24,118 nt of DNA from a virus: positions 1-24,118 of IMG/VR virus record IMGVR_UViG_3300045999_007352; one strand, given 5' to 3'. A program made the position numbers and the translations under genes. The notes beneath the pieces were generated by a model, which ran no database searches, was not told the origin of the DNA, and saw nothing but the letters and a program-made list of their open reading frames with translations. This document shows, in pieces, positions 5,461-19,592 of the stretch. The first letter of the stretch is position 1. Each line of letters opens with the position of its first letter.

Positions 5461-6705
5461 ATGATAGATAATATTCACGCAGATATTGCTAAACATTCAA
5501 AAACATTAATGTTTAAGGAACCGTTTTATGGATTGTTTCTGATTAGTTTAAATAAAGAAATTAGTGATGCTGTTTCTACCGCTTGTGTAGCTAAAGATGG
5601 TATTAATACTAAACTAGTTATTAGTCCTAAATTTTGGGAGACAATTAGTGATCCATGTAAAGTAGCTGTTTTGAAACATGAATTGCTTCATATTGCGTTT
5701 AAACATCTTCAAATGTATGATGATTATTCAGAAAAAGAATTGTTGAATGTAGCTGCTGATTTAGAAATTAATCAATATATTGAAGATTCTTATAAAGATG
5801 AAACTTGGGAGGGTTTAGAAATAACTAAAGCACCTTGGGCTGCTCTTAATTTACCTGTTAAAGCGGGTACTAGAAAATATTATGAGTTATTACAACAAGA
5901 AATGCAAACTAATCCAGATGGTGATATTGCTAATTTTGTTCAAGCAATGAAAGCTGCTAATGGAGATGGTGAATCAAGAACTGTAACATTAGGTGATGGT
6001 ACTGAAGTTGAAGTTAAAGCATCTCATGAATTTTGGAAACAATATGAGGGTATGGATGAAGCAGAAAAGAAATTGATGGAGAAACAAATTGAACATCAAT
6101 TGAAAGAAACAGCTGATCAAGTACAAAGAAGTAGAGGTACTATACCTGGTGAGTTGAAAGAATTAATTGATAGTTTATATCTAAGTGAAGAAGCTGTTAT
6201 TGATTGGAGAGCATATTTAAGACGTTTCAATGGTATGGCTAATAAAATATTCACTAAAAAAACAAGACGTAAACCAAATAAACGTTTTTATGGTAATCCA
6301 GCTCTTAAAATTAAACAAAAGAAAAATACACTTGTAGCTGTTGATACATCAGGTTCAGTTGGTAAAGATGATTTAAAGGAGTTTTTAAGTGAAATTCATC
6401 ATATTTGGAAAACAGGTACACAAGTAACTGTTGTTGAATGTGATGCTAGAATTGGTCGTGTTTATGAGTATGTAGGTAAATTTGAAGAAGCTAAAGAAGT
6501 GACTGGTCGTGGAGGTACTGATTATGAACCAGTGATGCAATATCTTTGGGATCATAAAGATAAATATCAAAATTTGATTTATTTAACTGATGGTGAATGT
6601 GGAATTGGTCGTACACAACCATGTAAACCAACATTATGGGTTCATTGTTCAGGAAGACAAATAAATGATGAACTACCAGGTGCTAAAATACAAATAACAG
6701 CTTAA
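5461..6705 (+). CDS. Metallopeptidase-like (DUF2201-type) protein with C-terminal VWA domain
   Basis: The product has 414 residues in two parts. The N-terminal part has a zincin-type HELLH at 73-77, followed by H82 and a conserved-looking NVAADLEIN at 96-104, as in the putative metallopeptidase family that precedes VWA-like domains (DUF2201). A charged linker (about 165-235) follows. The C-terminal part has a complete MIDAS set: DTSGS at 295-299, GGTD at 351-354 and TDGE at 376-379. All metal-binding positions are retained, so both domains may be active. VWA proteins of this kind typically pair with a MoxR-type AAA+ ATPase, and such a gene follows 48 bases downstream. The pair probably acts as a chaperone-like machine on some protein complex; the target is unknown. 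Confidence 0.85.
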   Translation: MIDNIHADIAKHSKTLMFKEPFYGLFLISLNKEISDAVSTACVAKDGINTKLVISPKFWETISDPCKVAVLKHELLHIAFKHLQMYDDYSEKELLNVAADLEINQYIEDSYKDETWEGLEITKAPWAALNLPVKAGTRKYYELLQQEMQTNPDGDIANFVQAMKAANGDGESRTVTLGDGTEVEVKASHEFWKQYEGMDEAEKKLMEKQIEHQLKETADQVQRSRGTIPGELKELIDSLYLSEEAVIDWRAYLRRFNGMANKIFTKKTRRKPNKRFYGNPALKIKQKKNTLVAVDTSGSVGKDDLKEFLSEIHHIWKTGTQVTVVECDARIGRVYEYVGKFEEAKEVTGRGGTDYEPVMQYLWDHKDKYQNLIYLTDGECGIGRTQPCKPTLWVHCSGRQINDELPGAKIQITA

Positions 6706-6733
6706 TGACCTTAATTAATAACTTAAATTTAAT

Positions 6734-6745
6734 TATAAATAAAAA
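6734..6745 (+). promoter_or_regulatory. Shared leader motif TATAAATAAAAA (copy 3)
   Basis: The third identical 12-mer lies 8 bases before the ATG at 6754, in a 48-base gap between the VWA and MoxR genes. The TATAAATA core occurs once more at 11788-11795, before the ATG at 11798. By eye I found no exact copy of TATAAATA inside a gene. Confidence 0.45.
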
Positions 6746-6753
6746 ATAAATAT

Positions 6754-7947
6754 ATGGCTAAGAAATCAACATCAAAAACAAACGCATCTGTATCATTAAA
6801 CGTTCATGAATTAAAAGACTTTTTAAAACACATTATCGATAATAATCGTTATCTACAAGAAAATAGTAAACCAATGGTTAGTACTGAAGTAGTAGGTGAT
6901 TCAGGTATTGGTAAAACATCATCTATTATTCAGTTAGCAAATGAATTAGGATTGAATTTTGTTAAATTGAACCTTGCACAGATTGAAGAAATTGGTGATT
7001 TGGTTGGTTTTCCAATTCGTCAATTTGAAATGAAGGATAAGAAAGTAACTGAATGGGTAGATGAAAATTCAGTTGAGGATTATCGTAAAAAAGGATTTGA
7101 ATCAACAGGATTGAACCGTATGAGTTATTGTCCGCCAGAATGGATTAGTGGAAAAACAAATGGAGGTATATTGTTATTGGATGACTGGAATAGAGCTGAT
7201 ATGAGATTCATTCAAGCTGTAATGGAATTAATTGACCGTCAACAGTATATTAGTTGGAAACTACCTAAAGATTGGCATATTATATTAACATCAAATCCTG
7301 ACAATGGTGATTATTTAGTTAATAGTATAGATAACGCTCAGAAAACTAGATTTATTAGTGTTAATTTAAAGTTTGATCTTAAATGTTGGGGTAAGTGGGC
7401 TGAAGAGAATAAACTAGATGGTCGTTGTATTAATTTTATGTTGATGCATCCAGAACTAGTTACTAAAGAAGTTAATAGTAGAAGTGTGAGTATGTTCTTT
7501 AATAGTATTAGTTCAATTAAAAGTTTTGAAGAATCATTACCATTAATTCAGATGATTGGTGAGGGTTCAGTTGGTAGTGAATTTAGTACTTTGTTTACAA
7601 TGTTCATTAATAACAAATTGGATAAGATGATTTCACCAGAAAATATCTTAAATCAAGATGAACAATATGTGATGAACACACTTAAAAGTTTAGTTGGTAA
7701 AGATACAAATTATAGAGCTGATATTGCCTCAACATTAGGTACAAGGGTTGCTAACCATTTAGAATTTTATGCTAAAGAAAATAGTATTGAAAAACCACTT
7801 ATTGAACGTATCAGTAAGATTGTTACCGAGAAAATATTTGCTACAGATGTATGTTATAATATGGTTAAATCAATTTATAATAGTAATCCAGGTAAATTTA
7901 AATTGATGATGTTGAATAAAGAATTAGTTAAATACATTACTAAATAA
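6754..7947 (+). CDS. MoxR-type AAA+ ATPase
   Basis: The 397-residue product has a Walker A at 48-55 (GDSGIGKT), a Walker B at 140-149 (LLLDDWNRAD), a sensor-1 segment at 178-182 (LTSNP) and a candidate arginine finger in KTRF at 197-200. The NRAD after Walker B and the TSNPDNGDYLV stretch are typical of MoxR/RavA-like ATPases that remodel protein complexes. The N-terminus is short and Lys/Ser/Thr-rich; the C-terminal ~180 residues are helical. With the preceding VWA gene it forms the classic MoxR-VWA pair (compare RavA-ViaA). The gene ends the middle module: a terminator-like hairpin starts 26 bases after its stop. A dynein-like or McrB-like assignment is less likely because of size and neighbour. 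Confidence 0.87.
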   Translation: MAKKSTSKTNASVSLNVHELKDFLKHIIDNNRYLQENSKPMVSTEVVGDSGIGKTSSIIQLANELGLNFVKLNLAQIEEIGDLVGFPIRQFEMKDKKVTEWVDENSVEDYRKKGFESTGLNRMSYCPPEWISGKTNGGILLLDDWNRADMRFIQAVMELIDRQQYISWKLPKDWHIILTSNPDNGDYLVNSIDNAQKTRFISVNLKFDLKCWGKWAEENKLDGRCINFMLMHPELVTKEVNSRSVSMFFNSISSIKSFEESLPLIQMIGEGSVGSEFSTLFTMFINNKLDKMISPENILNQDEQYVMNTLKSLVGKDTNYRADIASTLGTRVANHLEFYAKENSIEKPLIERISKIVTEKIFATDVCYNMVKSIYNSNPGKFKLMMLNKELVKYITK

Positions 7948-10392: not shown

Positions 10393-10749
10393 ATGGATTT
10401 CAATCAAGTTATATTTAAAGATAAAACTTTTTCAAGCTTACTAGAAGATATATATAAAAACGCATCTCGTAAGGAAAAAGAAATTAAATCATTAATCGAC
10501 CAGCTCAAACCAATGATTCAAGAGCCAGGTGATGCAATGATGCTTGTTCCATTACTTAAAGAGTATATGGAAATCGCTGTTAAGAATGATGAGGCCTTAA
10601 TTAAAATGGCAGGTATTGTTCAACGTGCTATGTCTAATACTCAAGGTGATGGAGATGGTGGGGTATTAAGTGAGCGTGATAAAGAATTATTATTCCAAGA
10701 AATTAGCGGTGTTAAAATTGATGAACCTAAACAATTAGGAAATGGGTAG
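10393..10749 (+). CDS. 118-residue conserved-type protein at the head of the tail module
   Basis: The product begins MDFNQVIFKDKTFSSLLEDI and is mostly helical: KEKEIKSLIDQLKPMI, MLVPLLKEYMEIAVKNDEAL and IVQRAM. A glycine-rich hinge (GDGDGG) precedes a final helix. I recall proteins of this type next to late sigma genes in T4-like phages of Bacteroidota, but no function is known to me. It may be structural or an assembly helper, judged only from position. It overlaps the lysin gene by 8 bases, implying coupled translation. Confidence 0.7.
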   Translation: MDFNQVIFKDKTFSSLLEDIYKNASRKEKEIKSLIDQLKPMIQEPGDAMMLVPLLKEYMEIAVKNDEALIKMAGIVQRAMSNTQGDGDGGVLSERDKELLFQEISGVKIDEPKQLGNG

Positions 10750-11785
10750 AGGAAATACAATATCAACAGGCAATGTAGGAGGTAAAAGATTGAATAATTC
10801 TTATAATCAATCTTCTATTAATACTCAAAAATCTTTTCCAACATCCCCTTTTGATTATGGAATTGTGTCAAAATTTAATACAGAGGATAAAAGTATTTAT
10901 TTTACTCCACTTTATAATAATTTAACATTAACAAAACCAGGAACAGCTTTACCTTTATTTAAAAATGGTATGACTAGTCCTAAAGAAAATGAAATTGTTC
11001 CTTTATTAAGAGCCCCAGCAGGCTCATCCATAATTAGTAATGCGGCTGGTAGAGAAGTACAATCTATCTATTATTTAGATCCACTTATTATAGATGGTAA
11101 TATAAACGCTAATGTTGTTCCTTTAACAGTCAATCAAGCCGCTCTTGAAGCTCGAGTACAAAGTGGGATTGATCATGAGTTAGCGAAAACCGCTGTGAGA
11201 AGAACTGGTAATACTTATAAAGATGATGTTAAATTAGTTATAACTAAACTAAAAACAGTATTTAGTTCTAATGAAGTTATAGCGGGTATATTAGGTAATA
11301 TACATGAAGAAAGTGGATTTGATCCTAATGATCTTTTTTATGATACAAATGAAAGTGATAGCTATGGCTTAATACAATGGAATACAAATAGTAATTCAGC
11401 TTCAGATATGGCAAGTATTGGTTATGTACGTAGTGTTGGTTGTAGTGCGTGTACAGGTACTGTCACTGGACAAATGGATTTTCTACTCAGGTATCCTGAT
11501 TTTCAAAATTTTAAAAAATTTGTAGTGAATTTACCTAGTGAAAGTCCTGAACAATATGCTTTTGATTTTGCTAGAATAGTTGAAGGATGTAATGGATGTA
11601 CAGAGGCTGGAAGATTACATTTTAATAGATTAGTCCCATATACCACACAACCTCTTTATTTTAAAAAAATAGTTAACTATAAAGATAGAAATGGAAACAT
11701 AAGACCATTAGAACTTAACCAAGTGAAAAGAAGTTATTCAGCTCGTCGATTTTTTGAATCACTGACATCTGGTGAATTAGCATAA
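10742..11785 (+). CDS. Baseplate hub/tail lysin (phage tail lysozyme-type)
   Basis: The 347-residue product has an N-terminal ~125 residues (DYGIVSKF, TPLYNNLTL, KENEIVPLLRAP) that look like an OB-fold hub domain. The catalytic domain, about 160-300, contains VIAGILGNIHEESGFDP (179-195), SYGLIQWN (207-214) and a FARIVEG stretch near 276-282, as in the phage tail lysozyme family. E189 or E190 is the likely catalytic acid. Two CxxC pairs (CSAC 234-237, CNGC 283-286) lie in the domain and could bind zinc or form disulfides. It would cleave peptidoglycan locally as the tail tube penetrates, like T4 gp5. Next gene begins 12 bases downstream. Confidence 0.8.
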   Translation: MGRGNTISTGNVGGKRLNNSYNQSSINTQKSFPTSPFDYGIVSKFNTEDKSIYFTPLYNNLTLTKPGTALPLFKNGMTSPKENEIVPLLRAPAGSSIISNAAGREVQSIYYLDPLIIDGNINANVVPLTVNQAALEARVQSGIDHELAKTAVRRTGNTYKDDVKLVITKLKTVFSSNEVIAGILGNIHEESGFDPNDLFYDTNESDSYGLIQWNTNSNSASDMASIGYVRSVGCSACTGTVTGQMDFLLRYPDFQNFKKFVVNLPSESPEQYAFDFARIVEGCNGCTEAGRLHFNRLVPYTTQPLYFKKIVNYKDRNGNIRPLELNQVKRSYSARRFFESLTSGELA

Positions 11786-11797
11786 TATATAAATAAT

Positions 11798-13780
11798 ATG
11801 GCCGAAGAAAATAAAAAATTATTTTACCCAGAGACACTCCCAGGTGATGTCCAATTATTACATAAAGATGGAGGTGGCATCTTAATGAATAATGATGGTA
11901 GATTTATATTCGGAACATTATCAGATGAGAGACTTAAACAACTTTACACTGAAAATTTTAATGGTAATCTAAAAACTAACTTTAACTACACTTCTATTAT
12001 TGGTATAATGAATCAAAATTCAGAACCTAGAGTAGAAATGCAAGAAGGTAATACTAATAGAACAACAATTATCAATCCAAATGATAATTTAATGCCTGCT
12101 CCACAGCCAGATATATGTGGTACTGAGATAGATGATAAAAATAATGAATTTAGAGAAATAGCTAAAGTAATATCATATTGGGAAGATTTTAATAGTAATT
12201 TTAAAAGTGATTCGAAAATAGTAAATGAACAAACAGTTAAAACTTTTGAAGAAAATTATTATCCAAGAGATATAGATACATATAAACTTTATTTCCCTGA
12301 CCAAACATTATATGAAATTATAGCTAAAAATTACCCACCAGACCCATCTAAAAAATTTATAAATCTTGGTTGGGGTAGATATGGATCTGATGTTCTTTCT
12401 TTAGATTCTAATATAACCTTTATATTTAATTGTTTTTGGAAAGGAGATGAATATGATACATTTAACCAAGTTGTTAAAAGTAATATAGGTAATTTTATAA
12501 AAAAATCTTTTCAACAAAATAAAAAAATTTATAATCTTCCACTAAAAGAAGCTCGTCTTTTTCCTCCAGGATTTAGATCTTTAATAGTGAGATCTAAATA
12601 TAATACTAGCACATGGGTAGCTAGATTATTAACAGCTCTTGGACCTGATTATTTGGATACCGGACTTGGTATAACTAAATTAGAATCCACTGTTGGATTA
12701 GCTAAATCTTTATCTGACGCAGATAAAATTCAAAAATTTAGCAATAATTATGAAAAAATTATAGATCTTTATAATGGCTATTCAACAACAGATAAAATAA
12801 AATTTTTAAGTACTTTAGCTCAAGAACATAAAGATTGGTATGGTAGATTTGTTGATCAAGGAAGTGATAAAAGATTTGTAAATAAACCTAATGAATTTAA
12901 AACATTTTATAACACATATATTGATTTAGCTTTAGCTGTGGCTATAAAATATGTGGATTGTACTCCAGAATTTACTTTAGAAAAAAATATTACACCCCCA
13001 ACATCAACTCCAATCCCTACTCCTATCCCATCTGCTAGAGTTAAATCAGTTGTTAATGTTGAAGTAGGTGATGATGCTGGTATATATGATATTGATCTTG
13101 GTGAATACGAAGTTGATTTAATTAATTTACCTGATGAAGAACCAATTCCATCACCTCCACTCGCTACCCCAGCTGCATCACCAACTCCTGATAACGGTAA
13201 TATATTAATTGTTGGTGATTCTATATCAGTTGAACTAGCTGGAACATGGTCTTATAAATTTAAAAAATTAATTGAAGGTCCAAACTCAACTAGAAAAGTT
13301 AAAATTTTAGCTATTGGTGGTAAACGAGTGACAGATTGGATGAAACCTGAGTTAGATAAAGAACTTAAAAGAAATAAATATAGTAGAGTTTTAATTTATG
13401 GAGGCGTGAATGATCTTTTTTCACCACTCAAAGTTGAAAGAGTTATAAAAGATATTCAATATATGGCTAATAAAGTTGTATCAACTGGTGCTAAAGCTTT
13501 TATTATAGTAGGATATGACTCTGATATAGATATGGACTATAATAATATGAAACTAAATCCACCATATGTTACTAAAAAAGAAGGTTATATACCTTATATT
13601 GAAAAATATAGAGCTTATCAATTAGCACTTGAAACAGATACCCTACCTTTCCCAGCGAATACTTATATAATTGACAGAATATCTGTTGGAAAACTTGGAG
13701 ATGGAATACATCCTGGTGGTAACCAAACTACAATATTAAGTAATCATATAAAAAAATATTTTGACCTATATGACAATTAA
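11798..13780 (+). CDS. Putative virion protein with C-terminal SGNH/GDSL esterase
   Basis: The product has 660 residues. Residues 1-102 (KKLFYPETLPGDVQLLH onward) are about 70% identical, without gaps, to the N-terminus of the next gene. Residues ~110-400 form a unique, mostly helical, unrecognised domain. A Pro/Thr linker holds an NVEVGDDAGIYDIDL motif near 420-434. An SGNH hydrolase domain fills ~468-660 with all four blocks: GDSIS (S475), the AIGG turn (G507/G508), GGVND (N538) and DGIHP (D635, H638). It probably removes acyl groups from host surface polysaccharide from within the baseplate or fibre. No signal peptide is seen, consistent with a virion protein. The gene after the lysin overlaps the following one by 11 bases. 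Confidence 0.8.
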   Translation: MAEENKKLFYPETLPGDVQLLHKDGGGILMNNDGRFIFGTLSDERLKQLYTENFNGNLKTNFNYTSIIGIMNQNSEPRVEMQEGNTNRTTIINPNDNLMPAPQPDICGTEIDDKNNEFREIAKVISYWEDFNSNFKSDSKIVNEQTVKTFEENYYPRDIDTYKLYFPDQTLYEIIAKNYPPDPSKKFINLGWGRYGSDVLSLDSNITFIFNCFWKGDEYDTFNQVVKSNIGNFIKKSFQQNKKIYNLPLKEARLFPPGFRSLIVRSKYNTSTWVARLLTALGPDYLDTGLGITKLESTVGLAKSLSDADKIQKFSNNYEKIIDLYNGYSTTDKIKFLSTLAQEHKDWYGRFVDQGSDKRFVNKPNEFKTFYNTYIDLALAVAIKYVDCTPEFTLEKNITPPTSTPIPTPIPSARVKSVVNVEVGDDAGIYDIDLGEYEVDLINLPDEEPIPSPPLATPAASPTPDNGNILIVGDSISVELAGTWSYKFKKLIEGPNSTRKVKILAIGGKRVTDWMKPELDKELKRNKYSRVLIYGGVNDLFSPLKVERVIKDIQYMANKVVSTGAKAFIIVGYDSDIDMDYNNMKLNPPYVTKKEGYIPYIEKYRAYQLALETDTLPFPANTYIIDRISVGKLGDGIHPGGNQTTILSNHIKKYFDLYDN

Positions 13781-15116
13781 TGATAAAAAATTATTCTATC
13801 CTGAAACACTTCCTGATGATATCCAATTCTTACATCAGGATGGTGGAGGTGTATTAATGAATAATGAGGGTAGATTTTTATTTAGTTCTGTGTCTAAAGA
13901 AAAACTTGAACAACTTTACGCTGAAGATTTTAATGGTAATTTAATTACTAATTTTAATGATATATCTGTTATAGGACTATTAAATCAAAAATCACTTCCT
14001 AGAACAGAAATGCAAGAAGGTAATACAAATAAATTAACAATTATCAATCCAAATGATAATCTAATACCAGCCCCAGAGGTAGATAATTCTCCAACAATTA
14101 CACCTACCCCATCTCCTACACCACCAACACCTTCTTCAACTGTTAATGCTCCAAATATAGAACCTAAAAAACCACCTGTTTTTAATGTTGAAATTGGAGA
14201 TAATAATGGTATATATGAAATTGATCTTGATAATATGCCAGATGATGAAAATAATAGTGCATATGTAACAGATGATAATAATGATTATTTTGAGGATGAT
14301 TTTGTTTTAATATATGGTATATTACCAAATGGAGCTCCTCTTTTTATACCTAATCAAAAACCACCAACAACACAAAAAGAAGCAAATGATAATGCAGCTC
14401 AAACCGCTAAAAGTAATCAAGATGACCCACAATTTGATAACCAACAGAAAAAACAAGTTGTAACTCAAACTCCAAAACAAGCTCCTCAAAAACAAAAACC
14501 AGCAGTTCAACCTAAGGCTAAAGATGAAGGTAAAGGATATAGAGTTGGAAATCTAGAAAAAAATCATAACTTCTATGTCATACCAGGAAATCAAAATAAT
14601 TACAGATCAGCTCAAATGCCTGTTAAATTTAATAGTGAAACAAATCAATATGAAGGAGATTTTGTAGACGCTATTAAAAAGTATAATATAAAAAGAGTTA
14701 TAAGAATGAATGCTGATAAAGGAGATAATAAAAGAAGTAGCTTCCCAGCTATCACAACAGCGGTAGAAAAAGCAATGTGTGAAAGTCTTGGAGTTGAATA
14801 TATTTGGATAAACGCTCATCCACCTCAAAAAGTAAACTCTAAAATTAATGATTATTTAAAAAAGGGAAATACCTTAATACATTGTCTCCATGGCGCTGAC
14901 AGAACAGGAGGGCATGTTGGTGGATATTTATTTAAATCAGGCATAATGACAGATCCTAATAAAATTTGGGAATATACACTTAAATTTAATAACTGGAAAT
15001 ACTATATAAAAAATGGTGGATTTTATAGTAAAGGAGGTATGGGTACAGGATTTTCACAATATGCCTTAACATTTTTAACTGAAAAACAATTAGAAGCATT
15101 AGCTCCATCAAAATAA
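13770..15116 (+). CDS. Putative virion protein with C-terminal Cys-based (PTP/DSP-type) phosphatase
   Basis: The start is the ATG at 13770, not the upstream TTG at 13761, because the N-terminus then aligns residue for residue with the preceding protein. The 448-residue chain has the shared domain (1-102), a Pro/Thr linker, an NVEIGDNNGIYEIDL motif near 139-153, a long low-complexity Gln/Lys/Pro region (about 200-255) and a C-terminal domain of ~190 residues. That domain has the phosphatase P-loop HCLHGADRTGG, with nucleophile C372 and R378 in the canonical HC(x5)R spacing followed by T. The fold suits dual-specificity or inositol-phosphatase-like enzymes. The general acid cannot be placed with certainty. 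A substrate on the host surface or in the cell is unknown. Confidence 0.78.
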   Translation: MTINDKKLFYPETLPDDIQFLHQDGGGVLMNNEGRFLFSSVSKEKLEQLYAEDFNGNLITNFNDISVIGLLNQKSLPRTEMQEGNTNKLTIINPNDNLIPAPEVDNSPTITPTPSPTPPTPSSTVNAPNIEPKKPPVFNVEIGDNNGIYEIDLDNMPDDENNSAYVTDDNNDYFEDDFVLIYGILPNGAPLFIPNQKPPTTQKEANDNAAQTAKSNQDDPQFDNQQKKQVVTQTPKQAPQKQKPAVQPKAKDEGKGYRVGNLEKNHNFYVIPGNQNNYRSAQMPVKFNSETNQYEGDFVDAIKKYNIKRVIRMNADKGDNKRSSFPAITTAVEKAMCESLGVEYIWINAHPPQKVNSKINDYLKKGNTLIHCLHGADRTGGHVGGYLFKSGIMTDPNKIWEYTLKFNNWKYYIKNGGFYSKGGMGTGFSQYALTFLTEKQLEALAPSK

Positions 15117-15128
15117 AAATAATAAATA

Positions 15129-15593
15129 ATGGCTGATAATGAATTTAAAGATATAAGAGAATACGCTGGTGAGCAGATAATATTAGCTTCAAACCGACTA
15201 GTTTTTAACGCTAGATTGGATAGTATATTATTATCATCACGTCAATATATAAATCTATCAGCTGGTGATAAAGTGACTATTGATGTGGGTGTTATAGATA
15301 CAGATAATGAACAAAATATGTTTTTAGTTAACGCTCCAAGAATTCAATTTGGATTAGGTATAACAACTAAAACAATTGAACCTGTTGTTAAAGGAGATAA
15401 ATTAGAGGAAGTATTAAATGATATTATACAAGCTTTAATAGATTATAGCACGAATGTGTCAACATCTGTACCACCATGGTCTCCACTTTTAAAAATAGCT
15501 GAGTTAAAATTAACTGGTGATTTAAATAGAATAAAAAATAATAAAATCAAACCAGCTGGATCTATTAAATCTGATGTAACATATACAATATAA
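15129..15593 (+). CDS. Probable baseplate spike-like protein
   Basis: The 154-residue product has repeated short beta strands early on (EQIILASNRLVFNARLD, SILLSSRQYINLSAGDK, VTIDVG), a pattern typical of beta-helix tips in phage spike proteins. The C-terminal half (VVKGDKLEEVLNDIIQALI) is a helical segment also seen after such repeats in T4-like spike proteins of Bacteroidota phages. Position after the lysin and enzyme genes and before the wedge genes supports a central-spike or hub role. It is not a clear PAAR protein. Its stop shares one base with the next ATG (TAATG). Confidence 0.58.
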   Translation: MADNEFKDIREYAGEQIILASNRLVFNARLDSILLSSRQYINLSAGDKVTIDVGVIDTDNEQNMFLVNAPRIQFGLGITTKTIEPVVKGDKLEEVLNDIIQALIDYSTNVSTSVPPWSPLLKIAELKLTGDLNRIKNNKIKPAGSIKSDVTYTI

Positions 15594-16822
15594 TGGCTAA
15601 TAAATTTACATATAGTGTTCAAGCTGTAGGACCTAAAAATTCTATTATTGTTTATAACAATGAAAAAATTATATATACTGGTAAACCATCAGCTTTTGCC
15701 CCTGTTGAAGGACCAGGATCATTACTTGATGAAGCTAAAGCAGCTTTAATTAATACATATGGACCTGATATTAATAATATAACTAAAGTCCCATCAGGTG
15801 GTTTAAATACAACTTCATTAAATGTACAGTCATTATCTAATAACCCATCACAATCTCCTATTAACACAAGTTCAGCTAAAAATCAAGTTGAAAATTTAAA
15901 ACAGCAACAGCAAGCTAAAGTTGATGATGTTAAAGAATCTATTAATGATAAAAAGAAATTTTTAAAAGAACAACTGTCAGCTAAAAATATTAAAGCTCTT
16001 TTATTTTCTCTTTTAACACCAATTCTTTTAAAATTTATAAGAATTGAGAACATAGCCCAAACAAGTTTAGATTTAGCTTTATCTGTTTTAAAGAAACAAT
16101 TAGCTAAAAAAGGTACATTAGAAGTGAAAGGATTAACATATACATTCACACCTTATAAAACAGGAGACTATGTTAATTTTGTTAATAACTTTAATAAAGC
16201 TAAAGATAATATAGATAAATCATTAAAATCTTTAGAAGAAACATTAGCTCAACTTCAAAATATTTTAACTTTTTTAAATATAGCTGTGTCTGCTTTACAA
16301 GCATATCTTGTTGTTAAAAGAATAATAATTTATTCAAAACTAGCAACTGTAACAACTGATTTAGCTTCACCATCTCCAGTGAAAGTTTCCGCCCCTACAA
16401 TTTTTGATTTAATTCAAGAGGAACAAAAAATTAAAAATATACAAGATAAAATATCAGATTATCAACTTATAATAACAGCTGTTCAAACATTTATAGCAAC
16501 ATTTAGAGCATCTATAGATAAAATACGTAATAAAACTAGACAAATAAATATTATTATAAACACACCAAATATTGATCCAAAATCACCAGCTACTAATTTA
16601 AATGTTTCTTTAGATGAAGTAATTAACACTGTACCAGATGTTGAAGAGTATATGGATTCATTTGGAAAAACGTTTATTTTACAGTTTATATCATATCCTG
16701 ATGAATCTATACAATACCAAGCGTTAGATTCCTTTAGTAGATTAAAAGTAGCTCAAACAGCCCTTAGTAGAACCGCGTCAAAAGAACAATTATTATCAGA
16801 AATTAAGCAAATACTTGGATAA
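15593..16822 (+). CDS. 409-residue coiled-coil structural protein, baseplate region
   Basis: The product begins MANKFTYSVQAVGPKNSIIV. A beta-rich N-terminal ~80 residues leads to a long Ser/Asn/Gln-rich linker, then alternating helices: QQQAKVDDVKESINDKKKF, a hydrophobic LLFSLLTPILLKF, SLKSLEETLAQLQNILTFL and KIKNIQDKISDYQ. The hydrophobic stretches are short and not clean membrane spans. I cannot assign a family; length and context suggest a baseplate hub or tail-tube-associated scaffold protein. It starts in a TAATG junction with the spike-like gene, and a candidate promoter motif follows its stop. Confidence 0.68.
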   Translation: MANKFTYSVQAVGPKNSIIVYNNEKIIYTGKPSAFAPVEGPGSLLDEAKAALINTYGPDINNITKVPSGGLNTTSLNVQSLSNNPSQSPINTSSAKNQVENLKQQQQAKVDDVKESINDKKKFLKEQLSAKNIKALLFSLLTPILLKFIRIENIAQTSLDLALSVLKKQLAKKGTLEVKGLTYTFTPYKTGDYVNFVNNFNKAKDNIDKSLKSLEETLAQLQNILTFLNIAVSALQAYLVVKRIIIYSKLATVTTDLASPSPVKVSAPTIFDLIQEEQKIKNIQDKISDYQLIITAVQTFIATFRASIDKIRNKTRQINIIINTPNIDPKSPATNLNVSLDEVINTVPDVEEYMDSFGKTFILQFISYPDESIQYQALDSFSRLKVAQTALSRTASKEQLLSEIKQILG

Positions 16823-17717: not shown

Positions 17718-19592
17718 ATGGCAAACATACCAGATATAAAATATTTTGATAAGGATTTTAGTACGTTAAAACAAAATCTAATAAATTATGCTAGGACATA
17801 TTTTCAAAATAACTATATGGACTTTAGTCCTTCAGCTCCAGGTAACATGTTTATGGAGATGGCAGCATACGTGGGGGATATTTTGTCGTTTTATACTGAT
17901 AATCAACTACAAGAAACATTACTTTTATACGCTCAAGAGAGGAAAAATATCATAGCTTTAGCTTACGCTTTAGGGTATAGACCTAAAATAACATCAGTAT
18001 CTACAGTTAATTTAGATGTTTATCAATTATTACCTTCAACTGGTAATCCAAATTATTTTCCTGATTGGAGATATGTTGTTAGAGTAAATGAAAACTCAAC
18101 TATCCAATCTATATCAAATCCAGATGTTACTTTTGTGACTCAAGATAGTGTGGATTTCTCATTTTCATCTTCATTTGATCCTACAGTTACAAGTGTTTAT
18201 CAATATTATACAGGAACTAGTAATCCACAATATTATTTACTTAAAAAATCAGTTAAAGCTATATCAGGACAATTTAAAACAGCTTATTTTAGCTTTGGAA
18301 ATCCTGAACAATTCCCAGTAGTAACAATAAATGATAGTAATATTATTGAAGTTGTTAGTGTTACTGATAGTGATGATAATGAGTGGTTTGAAGTACCATA
18401 TTTAGCTCAAGATACAATTTTTGATGAGACTTTAAATTTACCTTCTTTTGAGCCTAATTATTATAATGATGATGATAGTGCTCGTTTTCTTTTAAGAACT
18501 AAAAAAGTACAAAGACGTTTTGTCACTCGTTTTGATGATGATAATAATTTAATGCTAGAATTTGGTAGTGGTGTAGTATCATCTCCAGATGAAGTTATTA
18601 TTCCTAACCCTGATAATGTAGGAATGGGTTTTGTAGATGGTATTAGTAAATTAAATGTTGCTTATGATCCATCTAACTTCCAATTCACAAGTGAGTATGG
18701 TATAGCTCCTTCAAATACTATTATAACAGCTAGTTATTTAGTTGGTGGTGGCATTGACACTAACTTACCAGCTGATGATATTGGATTAAACACAGATGTT
18801 GCTATTAATATAAACACATATAATTTAGACTCAGAATTAGTTGATATTGTTTCTGGCTCAGTTAAATTTAATAATCCTCAACCTTCTTCAGGTGGTGGTC
18901 CTGGTGAAACAACAGAGCAAATTCGTTTACAAGCATTAGCGAATTTCCCAACACAAAATAGAAATGTAACTAAAGCTGACTACTTAATTAGAACATTGTC
19001 TATGCCAGCTAAGTATGGTTATATAGCTAAAGCATATGTTAATCAAGATTATTTAGTAGTGGATGACACAGACAGACAGAATTTTATGAATAATAATCCA
19101 TTAGCTCTTTCTGTATATATCTTATCAAATGATATAGATGGAAAAGTAACTAGAGCTTCTGATGTTATTAAACAAAATTTAAAAACATACTTATCATATA
19201 ATAAAATGATGAGTGATGCTATTATAATTAAAGATGCTTATTACGCTAATATAAAAGTAAATTTTGACATTTCAATACTTCCAGCTTATAATTCACAAGA
19301 TGTATTATCTAAATGTATTGATATATTAATTGATTATTTTGATATATCTAAATGGCAAATCAATCAACCTATAATATACTCAGATATATATAATACTATA
19401 GGATCTATTAAAGGAGTTCAATCTGTTATTAATGTTGAACTTGTAAATCTAGCTGGAGGAACTTACTCACCATACAGTTATGACATAAAATCAGCTACTA
19501 AACAAGGTGTTGTATATCCATCATTAGATCCTATGATTTTTGAGGTTAGATACCCAGAATCAGACATCTATGGTCGTATTATAGCTTATTAA
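17718..19592 (+). CDS. 6: Baseplate wedge protein, gp6/baseplate-J type
   Basis: The 624-residue product begins MANIPDIKYFDKDFSTLKQ. The N-terminal block (about residues 36-95) has DFSPSAPGNMFMEMAAYVGD and ERKNIIALAYALGYRP, the conserved start of gp6-type wedge proteins. The central part contains EQIRLQALANFPTQNRNVTK (about 398-417), a typical baseplate-J motif region. The C-terminus has PIIYSDIYNTIGSIKGVQSV, again a family feature. gp6 forms the inner ring of the contractile baseplate together with gp25 and gp53. No frameshift or truncation is seen. A 49-base gap with a promoter-like motif follows. Confidence 0.9.
   Translation: MANIPDIKYFDKDFSTLKQNLINYARTYFQNNYMDFSPSAPGNMFMEMAAYVGDILSFYTDNQLQETLLLYAQERKNIIALAYALGYRPKITSVSTVNLDVYQLLPSTGNPNYFPDWRYVVRVNENSTIQSISNPDVTFVTQDSVDFSFSSSFDPTVTSVYQYYTGTSNPQYYLLKKSVKAISGQFKTAYFSFGNPEQFPVVTINDSNIIEVVSVTDSDDNEWFEVPYLAQDTIFDETLNLPSFEPNYYNDDDSARFLLRTKKVQRRFVTRFDDDNNLMLEFGSGVVSSPDEVIIPNPDNVGMGFVDGISKLNVAYDPSNFQFTSEYGIAPSNTIITASYLVGGGIDTNLPADDIGLNTDVAININTYNLDSELVDIVSGSVKFNNPQPSSGGGPGETTEQIRLQALANFPTQNRNVTKADYLIRTLSMPAKYGYIAKAYVNQDYLVVDDTDRQNFMNNNPLALSVYILSNDIDGKVTRASDVIKQNLKTYLSYNKMMSDAIIIKDAYYANIKVNFDISILPAYNSQDVLSKCIDILIDYFDISKWQINQPIIYSDIYNTIGSIKGVQSVINVELVNLAGGTYSPYSYDIKSATKQGVVYPSLDPMIFEVRYPESDIYGRIIAY

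Follow-up and report, generated by a model that had tools for sequence, protein, structure and literature searches.

The locus studied raises the question of whether three consecutive phage genes, encoding a putative lysozyme, SGNH hydrolase and phosphatase, specify parts of a single virion device. The analysed stretch, hereafter the window, is the whole IMG/VR virus record IMGVR_UViG_3300045999_007352, with a length of 24,118 bases. The products of the three genes are designated P1, P2 and P3; according to translation, their open reading frames are intact and consecutive within positions 10742–15116 of the plus strand. The cassette and its neighbours are as follows:

10393–10749, + strand: G118, a conserved gene of 118 aa, the upstream border of the cassette
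10742–11785, + strand: P1, 347 aa, hub part and Phage_lysozyme2 (PF18013 match; hub HMM)
11798–13780, + strand: P2, 660 aa, middle-spike mounting domain, X domain, proline-rich linker and SGNH hydrolase
13770–15116, + strand: P3, 448 aa from ATG 13770, mounting domain, long disordered linker and Cys phosphatase
15129–15593, + strand: P4, 154 aa, tip part of the spike, a probable beta-helix (HMM)
15593–16822, + strand: coiled-coil-rich gene of 409 aa, in a conserved position directly after the tip gene P4
17295–17714, + strand: gp25 baseplate wedge, context (PF04965, E 1.5e-6; phrog_261, E 2e-17)
17718–19592, + strand: gp6 baseplate wedge, context (phrog_219, E 1.5e-12)

Gene G118 is 82–94% identical across the four nearest loci aligned and precedes the spike slot in 140 fetched loci; the coiled-coil gene shows 28–37% identity to its counterpart in the nearest loci. 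The genes of gp25 and gp6 are located 2–4 kb downstream of the P1–P3 cassette, and gp6 has a full-length identity of 45% to the baseplate wedge protein of phage immuto. Judging by these matches, the surroundings of P1–P3 are those of a T4-type baseplate cluster, in agreement with the initial annotation, which placed the three genes inside the tail module. The fourth gene of the cassette, P4, was overlooked there.

In another part of the window, at 1506–2616, consecutive small open reading frames of 88, 99 and 98 aa were found, with a less similar frame of 91 aa between them; the first three have the common pattern QxxAxxWL...QAKAMEKEQI...AY and look like small phage proteins of one tandem family. 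At 5461–7947, a metallopeptidase/VWA-like gene adjoins a MoxR-like AAA ATPase gene, according to by-eye reading of the translations.

The first enzyme of the cassette is carried by P1, in which two parts were recognised:

10880–11128, + strand: hub part of P1, residues 47–129 (hub HMM)
11267–11602, + strand: Phage_lysozyme2 domain of P1, residues 176–287 (PF18013)

The match to PF18013 has an E-value of 7e-12 and a score of 46.1 bits against a curated cut-off of 28.2, which upholds the earlier reading of P1 as a tail lysin.

The second enzyme belongs to P2, which has the following domains:

11798–12094, + strand: mounting (middle-spike) domain of P2, residues 1–99 (HMM, E about 3e-38)
12110–12997, + strand: X domain of P2, residues 105–400, predicted all-helical (recurrence; pLDDT about 90)
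13193–13774, + strand: SGNH hydrolase domain of P2, residues 466–659 (Foldseek; motifs)

The Pfam match of this protein to GDSL/SGNH is weak (E 7e-5, under the cut-off). In the predicted structure, the first Foldseek matches are the SGNH hydrolases TesA/EstA (prob 1.00, E 5e-4; TM 0.61–0.65 of the target), and all SGNH blocks are present: I (GDS) with S475, II with G507/508, III (GxND) with N538, and V (DxxH) with D635/H638. By predicted fold and blocks, the C-terminal domain of P2 is assigned to the SGNH hydrolases, as had been proposed from its intact motifs. The X domain of about 300 residues had been overlooked; it recurs in 11 other mounting-domain proteins (carriers include L110, L135, L148, L086 and L142) ahead of unrelated VanY-, CHAP- or C39-like tails, has the motifs LGWGxYG, LPSGLRxM and QYDxIIxxYNxDKxKFL, and had no match in the PDB sequence search.

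The third enzyme is encoded in P3, for which the start codon ATG 13770 is favoured and the listed TTG 13761 is less likely:

13770–14066, + strand: mounting domain of P3, residues 1–99
14550–15113, + strand: dual-specificity-type phosphatase domain of P3 (profile comparison, prob 97.7, E 1.9e-12)
14880–14909, + strand: P-loop of P3, HCLHGADRTG (H371, C372, D377, R378)

The match to DSPc by Pfam alone has an E-value of 0.007, and it was regarded as doubtful until the profile test settled the matter. The profile of the dual-specificity phosphatase family, built from seven homologues (one Acinetobacter phage record and six bacterial plasmids), aligned with P3 over 103 columns with a probability of 97.7 and E 1.9e-12, against at least 0.066 for column-shuffled controls. 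The P-loop is nearly identical to HCQHGADRTG of the homologues and conforms to HCX5R. On this evidence, the C-terminus of P3 is read as a genuine dual-specificity-type Cys phosphatase domain. It had previously been termed intact, which holds for the profile match and the P-loop, including D377, but not for the general-acid loop upstream of it (HIEDEDI in homologues, for example), the acidic residues of which are not conserved in P3. In the AF2 model of P3 the mounting domain is confident, but the phosphatase is only half folded, with no meaningful Foldseek result; in the PDB, no sequence significantly matched the SGNH, phosphatase or spike regions.

The N-terminal domains of P2 and P3, described previously as 102 common residues, were found to be common over 99 residues with 69% identity. 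The nearest other copy of the mounting domain is 52% and 48% identical to the pair; accordingly, P2 and P3 look like a lineage-specific duplication with differing tails. The linkers of both proteins, predicted to be long and disordered (low pLDDT), also have a common motif (GIYEIDL...LP-acidic):

14199–14249, + strand: linker motif of P3, DNNGIYEIDLDNMPDDE, with the P2 counterpart at 13070–13141

The motif, (D/E)xGIYEANFLPxxED, lies between the mount and the enzyme and was also found in L086, L148, L144, L176, L159, L167 and L143; its strict pattern occurs in 9 of 62 distinct proteins with a middle domain and is absent from all of 2562 other open reading frames. The motif is possibly a docking or processing site; the idea that it serves universally for docking or cleavage was rejected, as the strict pattern is present in just nine of these proteins.

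About 190 loci were fetched via the anchors gp6, G118 and P4; scans of single-protein collections with P3 or the N-terminal domain, as well as tblastn of P2 and P3 against phage records, yielded nothing. In distant relatives, among them Flavobacterium phage immuto and Microcystis phage Mel-JY01, one chain of about 344–503 aa occupies the slot that follows G118, the same as that of P1–P4; it has an N-terminal hub part, a middle region reading 'PFEGDxIIEGRWGNSIRFGST...' and a C-terminal tip part. The HMM seeded on the N-terminus of P1 also matches the N-terminus of these single-gene spikes (E 1e-16 to 1e-30), and the HMM seeded on P4 matches their C-terminus (E 1e-24 to 1e-42). The mounting domain of P2 and P3 was aligned by hhalign with the middle of the single-gene spike colinearly over 78 columns (prob 87, E 3.8e-6), against E of at least 0.04 in the controls, which comprised 30 column shuffles and the other local families. 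A first resemblance between these regions (8 sequences, E 0.002) was not accepted until full families and controls had been run. Accordingly, P1 corresponds to the hub with a lysozyme, P2 and P3 to the middle with an enzyme each, and P4 to the tip; homology of the parts and their order are demonstrated at the level of sequence profiles.

In the Mel-JY01 locus (L003:9424–10455), the place of the coiled-coil gene, after the single-gene spike and outside it, is taken by a gene with a chitinase annotation, another enzyme in the vicinity of the spike.

The order of a hub with lysozyme in P1, the tip in P4, then gp25 and gp6 is that of a spike of the T4 gp5 type. Comparison of the hub and tip parts with gp5 of T4 and seven other phages by hhalign gave E of 0.5–0.9, no better than shuffles, and membership in gp5 is therefore not claimed. 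The single-gene spike has no match in Pfam/PHROG beyond weak DUF3540/DUF2345, and these VgrG-type matches touch the tip region. Judging from gene order, the hub would have an OB-fold and the tip a beta-helix.

In a tree of gp6 from 74 phages, a single branch with a support of 99 separates the three-gene state from the rest, and the one-gene and two-gene states also cluster; the three-way split of the spike originated once on this tree. Two-gene clades have enzymes at the same middle–tip junction, namely, Amidase_2 fused behind the middle part (L019, L033) or peptidase M15 as a separate gene ahead of the tip gene (L021, L055).

All 111 mounting-domain matches in IMG/VR loci are located in the slot between the hub and the tip in every case where the contig includes both borders. 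The listing of C-terminal partners proposed in the initial annotation thus gave one slot with many enzyme partners, and confinement of homologues of the domain to non-structural proteins, considered there as the opposite outcome, was not found in the approximately 190 loci. The 47 distinct complete cassettes contain 27 tail families in 28 combinations, with near-identical flanks; the families were delimited by single linkage at E<1e-3, and BLAST linkage may miss remote kinship between them. In pairs with G118 at least 95% identical, the terminal enzyme is common to only 15 of 47, by which swapping of enzymes between relatives is demonstrated at the sequence level. Pfam partners of the mounting domain are VanY, C39_2, Phage_lysozyme2, SLT, GH108, GH19, CHAP, DUF2272, DUF1287, DUF5675, TIG, GDSL and DSPc, several of these matches being weak. 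The hub domain and slot-resident genes are combined with Phage_lysozyme2, Amidase_2, M15_3, VanY and Hydrolase_2, as well as with GxSxG tails resembling alpha/beta-hydrolases, recognised by motif only. Since most partners are peptidoglycan hydrolases, peptidoglycan cutting is the common theme, and the SGNH hydrolase and, above all, the phosphatase are outliers among the slot enzymes.

The earlier view of a modular mount displaying different enzymes gains from this swapping and from homology to the spike; its assumption of one mounting domain does not stand, because P1 carries the hub part and P2 and P3 the middle part, so that two mounting domains are present.

Variants of the cassette were also observed. 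The hub gene is duplicated instead of the mounting-domain gene in L127, L142/L175 and L145/L187, with hub parts 61–79% identical and sometimes different tails. In L007, L009/L177, L097 and L190 (e.g. L009:2832–4442), an enzyme-free mounting-domain gene of 167–170 aa lies ahead of a CHAP-like gene that stands alone in these loci but is fused to the mounting domain in L006, representing fission or fusion of a carrier–enzyme gene.

It is likely, in our assessment, that P1–P4 constitute a naturally split, multi-enzyme central spike of a contractile tail, with P1, P2 and P3 assembled in the virion, as inferred from sequence in the initial annotation too. P1 would be the hub-side piece carrying the tail lysozyme, P2 and P3 the duplicated middle pieces, each with a different enzyme on a flexible proline-rich linker, and P4 the tip piece; together they would form one column, probably trimeric, under the tail tube. 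Contraction would drive the column through the outer membrane into the periplasm, where the lysozyme would open the peptidoglycan wall, and the esterase, with its TesA/lysophospholipase-like fold, and the phosphatase may strip envelope lipids or polysaccharides of acyl/acetyl and phosphate groups, respectively, these substrates being guesses. Splitting of the gene in the clade of the window would achieve what T4 does by proteolysis, and the enzyme-bearing middle would then have been multiplied. Against such a spike stand the difficulty of explaining how one threefold column accommodates two different middle paralogues, the lack of a direct sequence match of hub or tip to T4 gp5, the weakness of the Pfam/PHROG matches of the single-gene spike and the single occurrence of the phosphatase tail.

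According to another explanation, P2 and P3 are peripheral tailspike-like baseplate decorations for which the mount is only an anchor; before puncture, the esterase would deacetylate surface polysaccharide and the phosphatase would trim phosphorylated glycans of the surface. In other phages, tailspikes and tail-tip proteins do contain SGNH deacetylases (PMC5380687), and the long disordered linkers would provide reach; the mounting domain, however, is homologous to the central spike chain and not to a wedge or fibre, and most slot enzymes are peptidoglycan hydrolases, needing the periplasm. This placement is considered rather unlikely.

The phosphatase tail was seen only once among mounting-domain proteins, in this contig, and could therefore have been acquired recently and be of no lasting use; no close copy was found in the 19 related contigs, plasmids and bacterial genomes searched. 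The usual substrates of dual-specificity phosphatases are phosphoproteins or small phosphates. Together with the outlying position of this tail among peptidoglycan enzymes, this is consistent with a real spike from which the P3 phosphatase is injected as an effector acting on host cytoplasmic proteins or nucleotides after entry. Bacterial homologues have signal-like hydrophobic N-termini, and one adjoins a PAP2 phosphatase, which favours an envelope substrate; the nearest homologues thus look exported, and in the T4 model the spike part remains at the envelope (PMC3004832), so that injection appears distinctly improbable. That P2 and P3 are non-virion late lysis or intracellular enzymes with genes in the tail cluster by chance is very improbable given the invariant hub-to-tip position of the 111 matches and the fused single-gene form, despite the P3 enzyme being unique to this contig and the partial literature search revealing no proteomics of relatives.

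The preferred reading, a split central spike, has several known counterparts. T4 gp5 is a single chain composed of a hub OB-fold, a lysozyme and a beta-helix (PMC4576200), and it is cleaved after the lysozyme into gp5*/gp5C; the parts stay assembled, and the lysozyme is restrained until the helix detaches (PMC3004832). The window is similar in the order of hub, lysozyme and tip upstream of gp6, and differs in the use of separate genes instead of proteolysis, in a lysozyme of the unrelated family PF18013, in the added duplicated middle part with SGNH hydrolase and phosphatase, and in a hub and tip without detectable sequence homology to gp5. Single-gene spikes of immuto-like and Mel-JY01-like phages have the same slot and three parts in one enzyme-free gene. 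Specialised ('evolved') VgrG/PAAR proteins of type VI secretion likewise carry exchangeable enzymes, more than one on a spike, among them lipases and enzymes that act on peptidoglycan (PMC10433429), whereas the window would serve phage entry and not killing, has no gp27–gp5 fusion and has its cargo on hub and middle parts in separate genes, not behind the beta-helix tip. Protein gp44 (Tal) of phage phi11, a virion tail protein, also joins a peptidoglycan endopeptidase with an SGNH hydrolase (PMC5380687), but in one protein of a siphovirus of a Gram-positive host and without a phosphatase. An enzyme-bearing contractile spike is thus of a known kind, represented by gp5 and specialised VgrGs, while the splitting and duplication of its parts, their rapid re-arming and the presence of a phosphatase make the form new.

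In the partial literature search, neither virion data, including proteomics, for any relative nor a report of a virion-borne phosphatase was found. We tentatively propose that in a T4-related clade the spike was split, the duplicated middles became exchangeable enzyme modules, and P3 would be the first known virion-spike phosphatase, dephosphorylating the host envelope at entry.

If this is true, a contractile phage can build its central spike as a plug-in device of several parts, much as in type VI secretion. The defined mounting domain allows systematic collection of enzyme partners, represented here by 27 tail families in 47 cassettes, and the cassettes offer a natural system for studying how enzymes ride spikes and what phages must cut in different envelopes. 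A further testable idea, prompted by the phosphatase, is that the host envelope may be dephosphorylated by some phages during entry.
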